Shown here: positions 4,282 through 9,098 of the stretch, piece by piece
Layout: each line of letters starts with the position of its first letter
How positions within the stretch are numbered: the first letter of the stretch is position 1
The notes under the pieces: model-generated
Told to the model about the DNA's origin: nothing
What the model saw: the letters and a program-made list of their open reading frames with translations, nothing else
Database searches by the model: none
NCBI GenBank assembly: GCA_003243865.1
Contig: QHBQ01000351.1
Location: 1 to 12,816, forward strand
DNA from: Candidatus Chloroheliales bacterium
Lineage (GTDB): Bacteria; Chloroflexota; Chloroflexia; QHBQ01
DNA length: 12,816 nucleotides
Reading direction: 5' to 3'
Program-made: the position numbers and the translations under genes

Positions 4282-7200
4282 CTATGGTATTGTTAATCTA
4301 CAATCTACAATCTGCAATCTACAATCTGCTACGGCGTGGTTACGCCCTTGTAGACGATTTGGGCCATCTCGTCGGGCTCCCCCCGGATGGTGTCTTAACC
4401 TTGCTCGGCGGCGATAGTAGAAAACCGCCAGGACGAGCAGGATACCACTAAAGAACGCCAAAACGAGTAGAACGAGCAGGAGGGCGTTTGGCCCAGAGTC
4501 GCTGGTATTCGGAGCTAGCGGCGTTTGCGATGCTCCCCAATCAATCAAGATGCTATCGCTGACGAAACCGTAGTTCGTCGAAGCCCCGACCACCACCGCC
4601 GATGCTTCGGTGTTGGTGACGGTCGCTACGGCTCGTCCCGCCGCGTCGGTTGTACTCACTGCCGGATTGAGCGTTGTAGTGGCTGGCCCGGCTACCTCGA
4701 ACATGACTGGCACATTCGGGATAGGGTGTCCCTGGGCATCGTGGACTAGCGCAGATAGCTCGATCGGCTCACCGTGCTGTGGGTGGGTGCTGGATGGAGA
4801 CAAGGTCATCTCAACCGGCGAGGGAAGGTTCCAGGTAACATCCAGCGCTGTCCATGCTGTGCCAGAGAAGGCGATCAGGTGTTCAGCGCCGTAACCGCGC
4901 AGCTGGAACGATGCCTTGCCTGAGGCATCCGTCGTCTGGGTCAGCACGGTTAGGCCATCTGATAGGTGGATAGGAACGATTGCGGCAGGCTGGCTCTGGC
5001 TGTTTGACGCCATTACCACGATCTCGGCGGACAAGCCATCAATAGGAGCAGTTGGGGGTGCGGTAGCCTGCAGCGCGGCCACCGGGCTGGATTGTTCCAA
5101 CACTGTCACAAACCCAGCGTTGAAGGATGCTCCCGCGCCCGTCACTCCTATCAATAGGCCGCTGGTCGCTCCCGGTGGTACTGTGAGCGTTACTTTGGTA
5201 TCGGACCACCCGACTATGGAACCCGTAATGGCGTGCATTCCCCCGATCAATGAGACAATACCCACCTGGCCTGGGGCAGCTCCCAACCCAGAACCAGTGA
5301 TGGTCAAGATGCCACCTGGAGCTACCACCGGGCTTGATAGTTGAACAACCGGCCCAGTCGGCAACTGGAGCGAGGTGGTAAGCGCGAGTTGCACGGTGGG
5401 GGTAGCAGATTGGACCGAAGGCAAAGCGTAGGTGCTAGCGAGATGTGGCCCTAGAAGTAGGCTCACCGGATCGAACGTAGAGCGATAGGAGCTAGTTCCC
5501 AACCGTGCTGCCAATGCAGGTATATCGCTTTGCCCAAGCGCGGCATCCTGAACCTGCTGCGTGAGCCAAGCGATGTTGTCGGGGTGCCGGTACACGATGC
5601 CGTGGGTTTCCAGGCCAAAAATGCCCAGGTGTCCACTGTAATTCCCAGGAGTAATCCGGCCCGGTTCCAAGTACGTTTTCACGTCCCCACAGTCTGAATT
5701 AAAATAAGTGAGCAACTGGAAGGCCAACTCGTTGGGCCTGCAGGGGTCGCCCGCTCCAGCCAGTTCCATCACGGCATCTCCTCTTGTACCGATCGGCCAG
5801 AAGATGCCGCGACCTTCTTTTTTCGCCTCAAGCGCCATGTGGATATCATCGTGATCCTTGAGGGCATCTTGAAGCCAGAGTTTTGCCATATCGCTTGCCA
5901 GAGTATTGCAAGGCAAGCTTGATGTGCAATCCTGCTTTGCTCCCAGGGATTGCATCATGCCTAGAGGATTGGATGCCCCGTTAATGGGAGCATCCAGGGT
6001 GAAGACTCCAGCAATGTTCTTCGATTTGGTGGCGCTCTCGGGAAAGTTTCTCCACCACTGCTTTGCGATCAAGCCACCTTCACTATGACCGATAACCACG
6101 ATTTTTACTTGTGACCATTTCTGTCGGATGGACTCTACTTCAATGTCCAAGACCCGTGCTTCGACATTGATGTCGGCGTTATTAGGAACGTGATTGTCGT
6201 ATGCAATGACACGGAACAAACCCGTGCTGCGATTCTCGAAAACAGCGCCCTGATAGCTAAAGGGCAGTATCACGGCCCCTGTGCCAGCCAGGCTGGTCAT
6301 TAGCGTAGGTCCATTGGAACCCTCCCCAGTCGTGTCGAAGGTTTCGGCCAACTGCTTGAGAACAGGATTCTTACCGTATTGAAGTACGGCACATTGCCCC
6401 TCTTTCAGAGGGTCATAAGGGTTGGGTTGCGGGTCAGGCAAGCTACTGTTGAGGCCCATTAGCATGACGACAACAACTTTGGGTGGGTTGATGGGGTAGC
6501 AAGGAAGAATGGGTGTAGGGGTAGGTGGCACAGGAGGGTATGGGCCTGGCTGGGGGGGAGCTACTACGACTCTGAAAGTGACTCTGGAATAGGGCGTAAT
6601 ACCATGCCACTGATCGTTACCGTCCTGGTAGACAGGTTCAGCAAAGTAATCCCCGAGATCTGAGAAGGTGCGGCTTTGGCGGTACTCATATTGTTCACCA
6701 GGCTGTAGGGTTAGGGATGCCGGGGGCCAATCAACGTTTGGAGCATCCCAGTTGCGAGCTTGACCGCCAGGGCCACGGCCTCCGGCGATCAACCGTTTTA
6801 TAGCAATGGCCGCGTTAGATGTATTACGGATGGTGAACACCGCCATCACCTGCTCATCCTGATGCGGGGAGTTGTCTGTGGAAAGGGAATCTCCGCACCA
6901 GGTCCGTCCGTCGCTGGTCGACAGTTGCAGCCCACACGTTCCGTTATGGACGACCACGGCCAAGCCACTGGACTTTGCAGAGACAAGTCGATAGTGGGCG
7001 CTGAGTTCGCTCACGCTCAGGGCAGATGGGTAGATGGCGACCTCGTCTACATCTCCGCTGAGACCGCCTCGCCAACCACTGGTTCCTATGCCTATAGCGC
7101 TAGCAGTTGTATCAATTGGATATGCCAGCGAGAATGGCTGTGTCTTAGGACTTGTTGTGTAGCAATGACCATCCCATACGTAGCCTGAAGGCTGCCGACC

Positions 7201-7845
7201 ATCAAGGACTATATTGACGCTTGCACCACTATTGAAGACAGTGACAGCTACATAGTGCCATTGGGAGTCAGCAAGCTGAAGTCCGGTAAGATGCAGATCA
7301 TCATCCCAAAAGCGGACGTACAAGCCTGAAGATGATTGTGAGCGACAAGCTCCTGGACCGCTGGATCCTACAAGTGATATGTCGAAGGCTTTGACGTGTC
7401 CCGATGCTCCAGTGTGGAAGAGATTCTGATCGCCAGCCTGGGAGGTTTTAAACCAGAGTTCGACCGTTCGGTCGTGGTTGCCCTGGAGTGCTGGAAGGGG
7501 AGTACCCTGGTTTCCCGTCGAGACATAGCCGGAATCACCAGCCAAGTATACTGCGGTATCGCCGCTGCTGCCGCCAAAAATGCCAGGTTGACCGAGCTTG
7601 TATTGGCTTCCCGTGTAAGTTGCATCGTAACCTGCACCTGAGGAGTCGTGTGCGATTGTTCCCGATGTCTCGTCGAGACGATAGTAGGCGCTGGGATGAT
7701 CGCTGAGTACGGCTTGCATATAGGCATTGGGCGGGTCAACGGAAGTGGTGGGGATTGGTTTTGGGAGATCTGCCTGCGCCTGCCCAGGCGGAACCAGCAA
7801 GACCAACAAACTTAGGATCGCGATGACGAAGGATCGGTTTCTCAT
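4282..7845 (-). CDS. Secreted multidomain alpha/beta hydrolase (lipase-like) with LamG, IPT/TIG and Ig-like domains
   Basis: This 1187-residue protein is probably exported and anchored by its C-terminus. Parts in order: signal peptide (1-26, cut after AQA); LamG/concanavalin-like domain (about 46-290, starting S-A-Y-Y-R-L-D-E-T-S-G); a beta-sandwich (about 320-430); a Pro-rich linker (430-447); a lipase-like alpha/beta hydrolase (about 455-770) with nucleophile elbow G-H-S588-E-G-G and candidate catalytic His748 or His754; an IPT/TIG domain (about 838-915); Ig-like domains (about 930-1005 and 1008-1103); a membrane helix (about 1120-1143) and a basic stop-transfer RRR. The substrate is unknown: a surface ester or glycoconjugate is possible. 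The ATG at 7845 has AGGAGGT 8 nt upstream. Base composition is visibly less GC-rich than the neighbours, and mobile elements lie upstream, so acquisition by transfer is likely. The last 36 residues look out of frame (see findings), so the true stop may be 4329. Confidence 0.83.
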   Translation of the reverse strand: MRNRSFVIAILSLLVLLVPPGQAQADLPKPIPTTSVDPPNAYMQAVLSDHPSAYYRLDETSGTIAHDSSGAGYDATYTGSQYKLGQPGIFGGSSGDTAVYLAGDSGYVSTGNQGTPLPALQGNHDRTVELWFKTSQAGDQNLFHTGASGHVKAFDISLVGSSGPGACRSQSSSGLYVRFWDDDLHLTGLQLADSQWHYVAVTVFNSGASVNIVLDGRQPSGYVWDGHCYTTSPKTQPFSLAYPIDTTASAIGIGTSGWRGGLSGDVDEVAIYPSALSVSELSAHYRLVSAKSSGLAVVVHNGTCGLQLSTSDGRTWCGDSLSTDNSPHQDEQVMAVFTIRNTSNAAIAIKRLIAGGRGPGGQARNWDAPNVDWPPASLTLQPGEQYEYRQSRTFSDLGDYFAEPVYQDGNDQWHGITPYSRVTFRVVVAPPQPGPYPPVPPTPTPILPCYPINPPKVVVVMLMGLNSSLPDPQPNPYDPLKEGQCAVLQYGKNPVLKQLAETFDTTGEGSNGPTLMTSLAGTGAVILPFSYQGAVFENRSTGLFRVIAYDNHVPNNADINVEARVLDIEVESIRQKWSQVKIVVIGHSEGGLIAKQWWRNFPESATKSKNIAGVFTLDAPINGASNPLGMMQSLGAKQDCTSSLPCNTLASDMAKLWLQDALKDHDDIHMALEAKKEGRGIFWPIGTRGDAVMELAGAGDPCRPNELAFQLLTYFNSDCGDVKTYLEPGRITPGNYSGHLGIFGLETHGIVYRHPDNIAWLTQQVQDAALGQSDIPALAARLGTSSYRSTFDPVSLLLGPHLASTYALPSVQSATPTVQLALTTSLQLPTGPVVQLSSPVVAPGGILTITGSGLGAAPGQVGIVSLIGGMHAITGSIVGWSDTKVTLTVPPGATSGLLIGVTGAGASFNAGFVTVLEQSSPVAALQATAPPTAPIDGLSAEIVVMASNSQSQPAAIVPIHLSDGLTVLTQTTDASGKASFQLRGYGAEHLIAFSGTAWTALDVTWNLPSPVEMTLSPSSTHPQHGEPIELSALVHDAQGHPIPNVPVMFEVAGPATTTLNPAVSTTDAAGRAVATVTNTEASAVVVGASTNYGFVSDSILIDWGASQTPLAPNTSDSGPNALLLVLLVLAFFSGILLVLAVFYYRRRARLRHHPGGARRDGPNRLQGRNHAVADCRLQIVDCRLTIP
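4296..4330. repeat. Heptamer tandem repeat (ATCTACA-type), five units
   Basis: Five consecutive 7-bp units read ATCTACA, ATCTACA, ATCTGCA, ATCTACA, ATCTGCT. The array adjoins the palindrome at 4262-4281 and is translated as the last residues of the hydrolase frame (VADCRLQIVDCRLTIP). Short heptamer arrays of this kind are known as intergenic repeats in filamentous cyanobacteria (STRR); here it is unlikely to be real protein sequence. Confidence 0.85.
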
Positions 7846-7916
7846 AGCCAGTACCTCCTAGCATAACCTTCCGCTGATTAACTGGCATTACAAATTATGG
7901 CTCGTATTAAGGGTGC

Positions 7917-7938
7917 GGTTATCTTTGGGTTATCTTTG
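7917..7938 (-). repeat. Tandem 11-bp repeat in the hydrolase leader
   Basis: GGTTATCTTTG occurs twice head to tail (7917-7927 and 7928-7938). It lies in the roughly 105-nt leader between the predicted transcription start and the hydrolase ATG. It could be a binding site for a regulator or a chance duplication; nothing in the window decides this. Confidence 0.55.
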
Positions 7939-7956
7939 GTGGGGTTTAATGCTGGT

Positions 7957-7985
7957 ATTGTATCACGATTCTGCCAACTTGTCAA
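7957..7985 (-). promoter_or_regulatory. Near-consensus extended -10 promoter of the hydrolase gene
   Basis: On the - strand, TTGACA (7985-7980, perfect consensus) is followed after 17 nt by TACAAT (7962-7957), preceded by TGA (extended -10). Transcription would start near 7950. The target-site duplication of the MITE begins 3 bp upstream of the -35 box, so the core promoter survived the insertions but everything upstream of it was displaced. Confidence 0.8.
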
Positions 7986-7987
7986 TG

Positions 7988-7996
7988 GGTGATCGC
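7988..7996. repeat. Left 9-bp target-site duplication of the MITE-like element
   Basis: GGTGATCGC here matches exactly the copy at 8926-8934. The two copies flank the 16-bp inverted repeats of the element, whose first 4 bases (TGAC, 7997-8000) are separated from the rest by the IS1-family insertion. Confidence 0.8.
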
Positions 7997-8000
7997 TGAC
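7993..8000. repeat. Left 8-bp target-site duplication of the IS1-family element
   Basis: TCGCTGAC is repeated exactly at 8797-8804, on the other side of the inverted repeats. Eight to nine base pairs is the known duplication length for IS1-family insertion. The duplicated site spans the junction of the older MITE and its own target duplication. Confidence 0.88.
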
Positions 8001-8028
8001 AGGAGTGGCTAAATGAGCAGAGTAATGT

Positions 8029-8034
8029 TATAAT
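8029..8034 (+). promoter_or_regulatory. Possible -10 box of the transposase gene
   Basis: TATAAT lies 6 nt upstream of the ATG at 8041. No good -35 box is seen at 16-18 nt distance, and no clear ribosome binding site precedes the ATG. If used, the transcript would be nearly leaderless, which would keep transposase expression low. Confidence 0.4.
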
Positions 8035-8040
8035 CAGCCC

Positions 8041-8421
8041 ATGACCAACCCCACCTGCCCCGATTGCCACTCCGCCCGCTTTGTCATCAAGAGCGGTCTG
8101 AATGATAGTGGCTCCCAGCGTTTTCGCTGCCAATCTTGCCGCCGTTACTTCACCCCACAGCCTAAACCTGCTGGCTACGACCAAAGCACCCGTGATTTCG
8201 CCCTCAAACTGCACCTCGAAGGCACCAGCTTTCGCGCGATTGGCCGCTTGCTACATCTCAATCATCAAACTGTCGCCAATTGGATTACTGCCGCGGCTGA
8301 CTTGCTGCCCGCCCAGGTAGCCGACCAGGGCGCCACTGAGAACGTCGAGATTGATGAACTATTTACCTTCGTTGGTAAAAAAAGTCCAAGTCTACGTCGG
8401 GCTAGCCATCGCGCGCGATAG
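8041..8421 (+). CDS. IS1-family transposase, N-terminal frame (InsA-like)
   Basis: This 126-residue frame begins with a four-cysteine zinc finger (C6-x-x-C9 and C29-x-x-C32), typical of the DNA-binding part of IS1 InsA. It continues with a helix-turn-helix-like stretch (about 60-90; FRAIGRLLHLNHQTVANWI) and reaches the first catalytic aspartate in V-E-I-D-E-L. After GKK the frame runs out of conserved sequence and ends in SPSLRRASHRAR. The homologous sequence continues in another frame after the seven A at 8377-8383. In known IS1 the InsA product alone represses transposition; whether that applies here is inference. Confidence 0.88.
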   Translation: MTNPTCPDCHSARFVIKSGLNDSGSQRFRCQSCRRYFTPQPKPAGYDQSTRDFALKLHLEGTSFRAIGRLLHLNHQTVANWITAAADLLPAQVADQGATENVEIDELFTFVGKKSPSLRRASHRAR

Positions 8422-8788
8422 TTACCTGATTGTGGGAGCTGCAGTAATGCAACACCGTACCCCTGAGGCGATGCAAGCACTCGCCGACCAACTGCCACTG
8501 GCGCAACGCTATTGTACTGATGGGCTAGCGATTTATCCTGAACTGGTCTACCCCGCCGCTGGTAAGCACATCCTCTCGGTGAATAAAGAAGAGACGCACA
8601 CGGTCGAGAGCAGCAATGCTAATTTGCGTACCTATCTAGGGCGGCTACGGCGCGCCAGCCGCTGCTTTAGCCGCAAGCTAGAAGCATTGTGGCGCGCGGT
8701 GCGGCTATTCGTCTGGCATCACAATCGGCGGCAGCGGGCGATACTTGCCAATCCCAAGTTGAAGAACGCCCTAACTCTGGTCTTTTAG
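8351..8788 (+). CDS. IS1-family transposase, C-terminal frame (InsB-like catalytic part)
   Basis: The frame carries the rest of the IS1 catalytic core: V-Y-V-G-L-A-I-A-R-D, then Y-C-T-D-G-L-A-I-Y (second Asp), then T-V-E-S-S-N-A-N-L-R-T-Y (Glu), and the family's C-terminal R-x-x-R-x-S-R-C-F-S-R. Conserved sequence begins only at VQVYVG after the A run. The first aspartate is in the other frame, so this frame alone is not an active transposase. Removing one A from the run joins both frames into one 248-residue protein. The nominal start (TTG 8351 or ATG 8354) is therefore probably not used. Confidence 0.85.
   Translation: MMNYLPSLVKKVQVYVGLAIARDSYLIVGAAVMQHRTPEAMQALADQLPLAQRYCTDGLAIYPELVYPAAGKHILSVNKEETHTVESSNANLRTYLGRLRRASRCFSRKLEALWRAVRLFVWHHNRRQRAILANPKLKNALTLVF
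8377..8383 (+). other. Run of seven A at the transposase frame junction
   Basis: The first frame reads GGT AAA AAA AGT; the second reads GTA AAA AAA GTC. Passing from one to the other needs a +1 (or -2) shift, not the -1 shift described for classical IS1. Slippage of RNA polymerase on the A run, or a one-base insertion in a formerly single gene, would explain it. Confidence 0.75.
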
Positions 8789-8796
8789 CCACTCCT

Positions 8797-8804
8797 TCGC
8801 TGAC
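8797..8804. repeat. Right 8-bp target-site duplication of the IS1-family element
   Basis: TCGCTGAC matches 7993-8000 exactly. Its last four bases (TGAC) are also the first four bases of the MITE-like element that follows. Confidence 0.88.
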
Positions 8805-8925
8805 ATCACGTCATAACTCCAAGCCACGCACAAATGGGACGCGGCGAGTAGATGTAGCTAGGCGCAAGATTGAGGCTAGCCGATCCATATCCTACAGCAG
8901 CTAGGACATTTATGACGTGATGTCA
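8801..8925. mobile_element. MITE-like element, 125 bp, interrupted upstream by the IS1-family element
   Basis: TGACATCACGTCATAA (8801-8816) and TTATGACGTGATGTCA (8910-8925) form a perfect 16-bp inverted repeat around a non-coding interior of 93 bp. The original left end was at 7997. The IS1-family element inserted after the first 4 bases, and its target duplication recreated those bases here, so this stretch reads as a complete copy. It is flanked by the 9-bp direct repeat GGTGATCGC (7988-7996 and 8926-8934). No reading frame is present, so movement would need a transposase supplied from elsewhere. The parent family is not recognised. Confidence 0.78.
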
Positions 8926-8934
8926 GGTGATCGC
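8926..8934. repeat. Right 9-bp target-site duplication of the MITE-like element
   Basis: GGTGATCGC matches 7988-7996 exactly and adjoins the right inverted repeat. Extending the inverted repeat to 17 bp would shorten the duplication to 7 bp, so the exact boundary is ambiguous by one base. Confidence 0.78.
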
Positions 8935-9059
8935 GGTGCTGGAAGTGCTGTTGCAAAGTCGGCACCCTGCGCGGGATAAATCCACGCCCCTACATCGGTT
9001 TCGCGCTTGTTGGGACGCAAATTCATTGCGCCCTTACAAACAACGATTCAATCTGAAAA
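8935..9059. other. Gene-free spacer with degenerate palindromic repeats
   Basis: No coding region is supported here. Two diverged members of the dispersed palindrome family lie within it. One, at about 8968-8993, reads GCGCGGGAT-AA-ATCCACGCCCC and ends in the flank CCCCTAC. The other, at 9012-9033, pairs GGGACGCAA with TTGCGCCC, with one bulged base, and is followed by TTAC. The same CCC(C/T)TAC flank is seen at the palindromes at 9060 and, as CCCCTAT, at 4262. Confidence 0.6.
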
Positions 9060-9079
9060 GGGCGCACGTCAGTGCGCCC
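9060..9079 (-). terminator. Palindromic repeat hairpin with U-tract, probable terminator of acetyl-CoA synthetase
   Basis: GGGCGCAC (9060-9067), loop GTCA and GTGCGCCC (9072-9079) make a perfect 8-bp GC-rich stem. On the - strand it is followed by TTTT (9059-9056). It lies about 45 nt downstream of the synthetase stop codon, so it can act as an intrinsic terminator even though its sequence belongs to the dispersed repeat family. Confidence 0.65.
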
Positions 9080-9098
9080 CTACGAACAACCTGTTTCA

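Follow-up and report, generated by a model that had tools for sequence, protein, structure and literature searches.

IS4-family insertion sequences are defined in the family description of PMC2266710 by a single ORF with the signature D(60-110)D(100-150)E and the motif Y(2)R(3)E(6)K, and they move by cut-and-paste transposition. According to the table of that paper, their target duplications measure 7-13 bp over the subgroups, i.e. about one helix turn, with 8-9 bp in the IS50 subgroup and 7-8 bp in the ISPepr1 subgroup, whose elements preferentially have CT ends. Nested elements and IS4-linked MITEs are already known kinds, as the relevant part of PMC3852290 indicates; it ties a MITE of 237 bp from H. 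walsbyi, with 17-bp ends, 5-bp duplications and 34 copies, to ISHwa2. Among the titles and abstract beginnings listed for Chloroflexi MITEs, IS4-linked MITEs, IS1 slippage, nested bacterial elements and IS701 with MITEs we found no description of the element treated here; it may nevertheless have been published.

The window, i.e. the whole analysed stretch of 12,816 nucleotides from a Candidatus Chloroheliales bacterium (contig QHBQ01000351.1), contains two small mobile elements, one inside the other (Table 1). A sequence-only reading had proposed an IS1-family element nested in a MITE-like element, with 796 bp, perfect 13-bp inverted repeats and an 8-bp duplication for the inner one. The ends and duplications of both elements are present in the sequence, and the inner element was found exactly as described; its perfect ends form part of longer ends of 23 nt with 91% complementarity. 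The proposed order of events holds as well. Since the duplication TCGCTGAC combines three bases of the target with five from the MITE end and hence spans the junction between target and MITE, the MITE inserted first and IS1 second. The nested structure is very unlikely to be a product of chance, because only ~0.003 perfect inverted pairs of at least 16 bp within 1 kb are expected in a window-sized sequence of equal base frequencies, and the probability that a given element is bordered precisely by an 8-bp repeat is 1.5e-5. A reading frame of 1,187 codons lies downstream of the MITE insertion site.

We consider it very likely that the outer element is a 127-bp MITE of an IS4-type, Tn5-like insertion sequence, that it inserted with a 7-bp duplication, most likely moved in trans, and that an IS1-family element later hit the junction of target and MITE and duplicated 8 bp across it. 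The IS4-type assignment is based on the identical 17-bp ends of an insertion sequence in a related genome (L024) and on its IS4-type, Tn5-like transposase. The related genome (G001) is the MAG 'Chloroflexi bacterium isolate GL140_3_metabat_63' of 5.2 Mb, the sole relative obtained in a scan with the saccharopine dehydrogenase-like protein of the window. The two versions of this protein share 89% amino acid identity in the best segment, and the acetyl-CoA synthetase regions share 86% DNA identity. The stretch of G001 compared with the window (L001) lacks any match to window positions 4374-9058 and thus offers no empty site for comparison.

Table 1. Features of the nested insertion, given in window positions (L002 and L024 are elements of the related genome G001).
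Feature	Position	Strand	Evidence
Left copy of the MITE target duplication, GTGATCG, 7 bp	7989..7995		sequence; length set by comparison with L024 and L002
Left copy of the 8-bp IS1 target duplication TCGCTGAC, across the target/MITE junction	7993..8000		
CTGAC, outermost 5 bases of the MITE left end, severed from the remainder by IS1	7996..8000	+	
IS1-family insertion sequence of 796 bp, bounded by perfect 13-bp inverted repeats (8001-8013 and 8784-8796)	8001..8796	+	
InsA-like reading frame with a zinc ribbon and weak matches to HTH domains	8041..8421	+	PF03811 1.6e-07; NF033558 87.6 bits
InsB-like reading frame (DDE_Tnp_IS1), in a frame different from InsA	8375..8788	+	PF03400 4.3e-05 on 8351-8788; homologues
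Seven consecutive A where InsA and InsB overlap, likely site of frameshifting or slippage	8377..8383	+	A7-A9 among 5 copies
Right copy of the IS1 duplication TCGCTGAC; last 5 bases are MITE end sequence	8797..8804		
IS4-type MITE, 127 bp, non-coding; perfect 17-bp inverted repeats 8800-8816 / 8910-8926	8800..8926		copies in G001
Right copy of the 7-bp MITE target duplication, GTGATCG	8927..8933		

The terminal inverted repeat of the MITE comprises 17 bp (CTGACATCACGTCATAA), and its length is 127 bp with the IS1 duplication counted once. The sequence-only reading had given 125 bp, perfect 16-bp inverted repeats and a 9-bp duplication. Perfect inverted repeats are present, as is a perfect 9-bp repeat GGTGATCGC (7988-7996 and 8926-8934), but the boundaries of the element had to be moved outwards by one base at each end and the target duplication shortened to the 7 bp GTGATCG. 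L024 is flanked on both sides by CACTCTA and L002, a MITE copy in G001, by ATCAATT. In both cases the exact match ends after 7 bases and is followed, towards the element, by a C at the left end and a G at the right end. Among the five elements compared (window, L024, L002, L003 and L025), the outermost base is C on the left in all five and G on the right in four. Consequently, these nearly constant bases, together with the 7-bp stops in L024 and L002, assign C and G to the element and leave a duplication of 7 bp. The 9-bp repeat in the window then represents these 7 bp plus two chance bases (the flanking G and C), since two other elements duplicate exactly 7 bp. Exact 7-bp duplications occur in three of the five elements (window, L024 and L002); L003 and L025 lack one, which counts against this reading. 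An element with 16-bp ends and 9-bp duplications, the length given for the IS10 subgroup, would make direct use of the perfect repeat GGTGATCGC. We nevertheless regard it as unlikely, because L024 and L002 mismatch precisely at the first and last of the nine positions, and the near constancy of the outer C and G marks them as bases of the element.

The absence of a second copy from any genome, which had been named as a refutation of the nested arrangement, is excluded by G001, where the proposed search for further copies was successful. Two full-length copies (L002 and L003) are 78% and 75% identical to the 125-bp query from the window, and a comparison of the two gives 93% identity over 118 bp. 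A different small element has interrupted a third copy (L025, 408-659), and BLAST revealed a 67-bp fragment on contig C385. A model of the sequence alone, built from the window and the three copies, gave five matches among the 150 of 582 candidates scored, namely the three input copies, which are necessarily recovered, the C385 fragment and one at E 0.21 that was not counted. The element is thus short, carries terminal inverted repeats and a target duplication and exists in several copies, as is typical of a MITE, and the sole ORF of at least 20 aa lying wholly within it has 25 codons. The exact 12+12-base end pattern had no match in the genome-contig and viral-contig collections, and the G001 copies have point changes there. 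A relaxed 20-base end pattern had no match in the viral contigs, and plasmid and phage records contained no DNA match to window positions 7988-8934.

With up to three mismatches the 16-base end occurs at 20 places in G001 versus 21 for the reversed control. Facing pairs are found on C88, C119 and C312, the fragment on C385 and a looser facing pair on C1, while the remaining places look like chance by eye. Since these counts are uninformative by themselves, the case for a parent rests on the only two exact 16-base matches in G001. They face each other and bound L024 (1039-2504, contig C88), an insertion sequence of 1,466 bp including the outer C and G (1,464 bp between the exact matches). The looser pair on C1 (L010, 1500-1565) spans 66 bp, with degenerate ends of the same family (CTGAGATCACGGCATAT / CTTACATTACAACATAA). 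Its flanks are nearly duplicated over exactly 7 bp, GCCGAAG / GCCGAAT (6/7); it is possibly a still smaller relative of the MITE, or chance.

The ends of L024 are identical to those of the MITE at 17 of 17 bases on both sides and agree with each other over 20 bp. Between them lies one long uninterrupted ORF (1069-2493) of 474 codons, or 458 codons from the ATG at position 1117. L024 therefore is an element of the kind that the sequence-only reading had proposed to look for, with the ends of the MITE and a transposase frame of 458-474 aa, and is, judged by these ends, the probable parent of the MITE. It was found only in the relative G001, as one complete copy; decayed transposase fragments are present there on C67 (two matches) and C198. 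The interior of the MITE does not match L024 clearly better than shuffled sequences (29 of 300 shuffles were as good), and a simple deletion derivative of the L024 copy was therefore rejected. Hence, the MITE derives from another member of the family or arose by end capture.

The L024 transposase contains a DDE_Tnp_1 domain (PF01609, 3.6e-06). Its best NCBIfam models are of IS4 type but stay below the cut-off (81.5 bits versus 160), and none of the other listed NCBIfam IS4 and IS701 models reaches its cut-off. Among 7,997 scored candidates 1,288 homologues were found at E <=0.001. Six of the 120 homologues listed are from named organisms (four Chloroflexota, one Anaerolineae and one Deltaproteobacteria). 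An alignment of 16 sequences chosen from these 120, L024's own protein included, preserves Y-x2-R-x3-E-x6-K (YREK) in all 16. The catalytic-signature residues are D111, D200 and E346 of the 458-aa protein, with spacers of 88 and 145 residues. The best PDB match is Tn5 transposase or its inhibitor, both by sequence (E 0.0042) and by fold (E 2.3e-13), as are all six fold matches with E <0.001. Normalised by query length, the TM-scores to the Tn5 entries lie at 0.40-0.44 for a model of moderate confidence (mean pLDDT 64), and the fold-aligned identity is 17-19%. Relatives with ~25-41% identity occur in five plasmid records and one phage record; at the two loci inspected in this set (L066 and L067) no end pair with a clear duplication was found. 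The transposase profile hit 22 stretches in viral contigs, none of them a relative. At L066 (Deinococcus sp. QL22 plasmid, 253133-255466) the IS4-like transposase gene is flanked on either side by a gene with the annotation IS1 family transposase, which may represent a further nesting of the IS4 and IS1 families.

By analogy with Tn5, a transposase dimer would bind both ends of the non-autonomous 127-bp element, excise it and insert it with a 7-bp stagger upstream of the 1,187-codon frame, which would produce the 7-bp target duplication. Judged by the ends, the duplications and the transposase frame, the MITE was probably cut and pasted in trans by an L024-type transposase. IS1 then inserted across the junction of target and MITE, so that CTGAC is all that remains of the left end on the outer side. 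Since the left end is split after 5 bases, this second insertion probably immobilised the MITE.

A structured repeat that does not move, such as a REP-like palindrome or an RNA gene, with a flanking repeat due to chance is a very improbable reading of the 127-bp element. Its interior is conserved between species and, as single-stranded DNA, the window copy folds better than shuffled sequences (z -5.4 on one strand and -4.4 on the other), as does L003 (z -2.4). L002, however, folds no better than its shuffles (z 0.14-0.16); hence the excess goes with intact end repeats, and comparison with shuffles gave no support for internal RNA structure beyond them. Furthermore, the Rfam search gave no match at the gathering score, and both the identity of the ends with those of a transposase-bearing element and the exact 7-bp duplications at three sites speak against such a repeat. 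That the IS1-type element moved the MITE, or that both jumped as one composite, can practically be dismissed despite their lying together, because their ends differ, the IS1 duplication contains MITE end bases, which makes IS1 the later arrival, and the G001 copies L002, L003 and L025 are without IS1.

Elements of the IS1 family make duplications of 8-9 bp, in agreement with the clean 8 bp of the window copy. For the copies L039-L041 in G001, in which both ends are present, no common flanking repeat of 6-9 bp was found. Like other members of the family, the window element encodes an InsA zinc ribbon (PF03811, 31.4 bits versus 26.1) and, in another frame, an InsB DDE domain (PF03400, 24.3 versus 24.1) with an A-rich overlap; the NF033558 match is split between them, with 87.6 bits in one frame and 35.9 bits in the other, both under 100. 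Scoring 40 of 50 candidates yielded eight related stretches in G001, the best with 83% identity over the full length. The A-run comprises 7 bases in the window and in L040, 8 in L039 and L041 and 9 in L042. Thus, the frames of the window copy (A7) join by +1 (or -2), whereas those of L039 (A8) join by -1. Of 120 InsB homologues listed, 111 have up to 140 aa, 7 have 141-199 aa and 2 at least 200 aa; the latter two do not, by eye, resemble InsA-InsB fusions. On fused one-frame relatives this search is uninformative, since candidates were scored up to ~239 aa and a fusion of ~249 aa lies above this limit. The InsB fragment of the window is recorded in two contigs, a hint that an identical second copy exists or that the same DNA was assembled twice. 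L042 (G001:C45:29680-30182) is a copy of 503 bp that connects end sequence of the AGGAGTGG type with sequence from the middle of the element, and is possibly a short element derived from IS1.

A second MITE family was observed in G001 (L025 513-636; L051-L065). Its unit measures 124 bp, with further forms of 174 and 370-393 bp, and its 20-bp ends (TATTACAGCCTCAGTTGGCA) have 216 matches with up to two mismatches in the 5.2 Mb of G001 versus none in the control. Exact 4-bp duplications (CTAA, TTAG or CTAG) flank 12 of the 17 elements examined, and three others show one mismatch. The ends agree with the IS701 end consensus in the table of PMC2266710 at 6 of 7 positions. The copy inside the third copy of the window MITE (L025) is a second nested case, for which L002 represents the uninterrupted target. 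In L052 (G001:C130:4500-4950) the ends are repeated on one strand with 96-base spacing (positions 115, 211 and 307), a pattern such as tandem amplification of part of the element would produce. In the window, a GC-rich palindrome (9060-9083, GGGCGCACGTCAGTGCGCCCCTAC) follows shortly after the acetyl-CoA synthetase gene, and L001 has a comparable one at the equivalent position. The window palindrome is similar to the GTAG-tagged repeats, which PMC3733652 reports from Chloroflexi as well.

The locus otherwise represents ordinary mobile-element biology in a poorly catalogued family, in which the order of two jumps is readable from the DNA. A previously unrecognised MITE gains a likely parent and a testable transposase, the comparison of copies corrects a duplication length read from a single site, and a Tn5-like branch of IS4 is marked out below the curated NCBIfam cut-offs.

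Measured against the family description and table of PMC2266710, L024 has the single ORF, D-D and D-E spacers within the given ranges and the YREK motif of the IS4 family, and its 7-bp duplication lies at the lower edge of the tabulated lengths. Its 20-bp ends agree with the tabulated consensus at 6 of 7 positions for IS50, 4 of 8 for ISPepr1, 3 of 7 for IS4 and 4 of 8 for IS231; the agreement with IS10 (2 of 2) and IS1634 (2 of 3) carries little information. L024 thus resembles the IS50 (Tn5) subgroup in its single-ORF DDE transposase with YREK motif and matching spacings, in its ends and in having Tn5 as nearest solved structure. It differs from this subgroup in its duplications (7 bp in three of five elements and inexact in the other two, instead of 8-9 bp), in the low fold-aligned identity and in staying below the listed NCBIfam IS4 cut-offs. 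The ISPepr1 subgroup shares with L024 the duplication length of 7-8 bp and the preference for CT ends, whereas the consensus of its ends fits only at the four positions mentioned. We tentatively suggest, as a possibility that we hold to be somewhat short of an even chance, that the L024 parent is the founding member of a so far undescribed subgroup of IS4 that is spread in Chloroflexota and metagenomes and combines IS50/Tn5-like ends with 7-bp duplications and with MITEs whose interior is conserved across species and unrelated to the transposase gene. The MITE of H. walsbyi has the tie to the IS4 family and the 17-bp ends in common with the window MITE, but differs from it in its 5-bp duplications and 34 copies, compared with 7 bp and few copies here.
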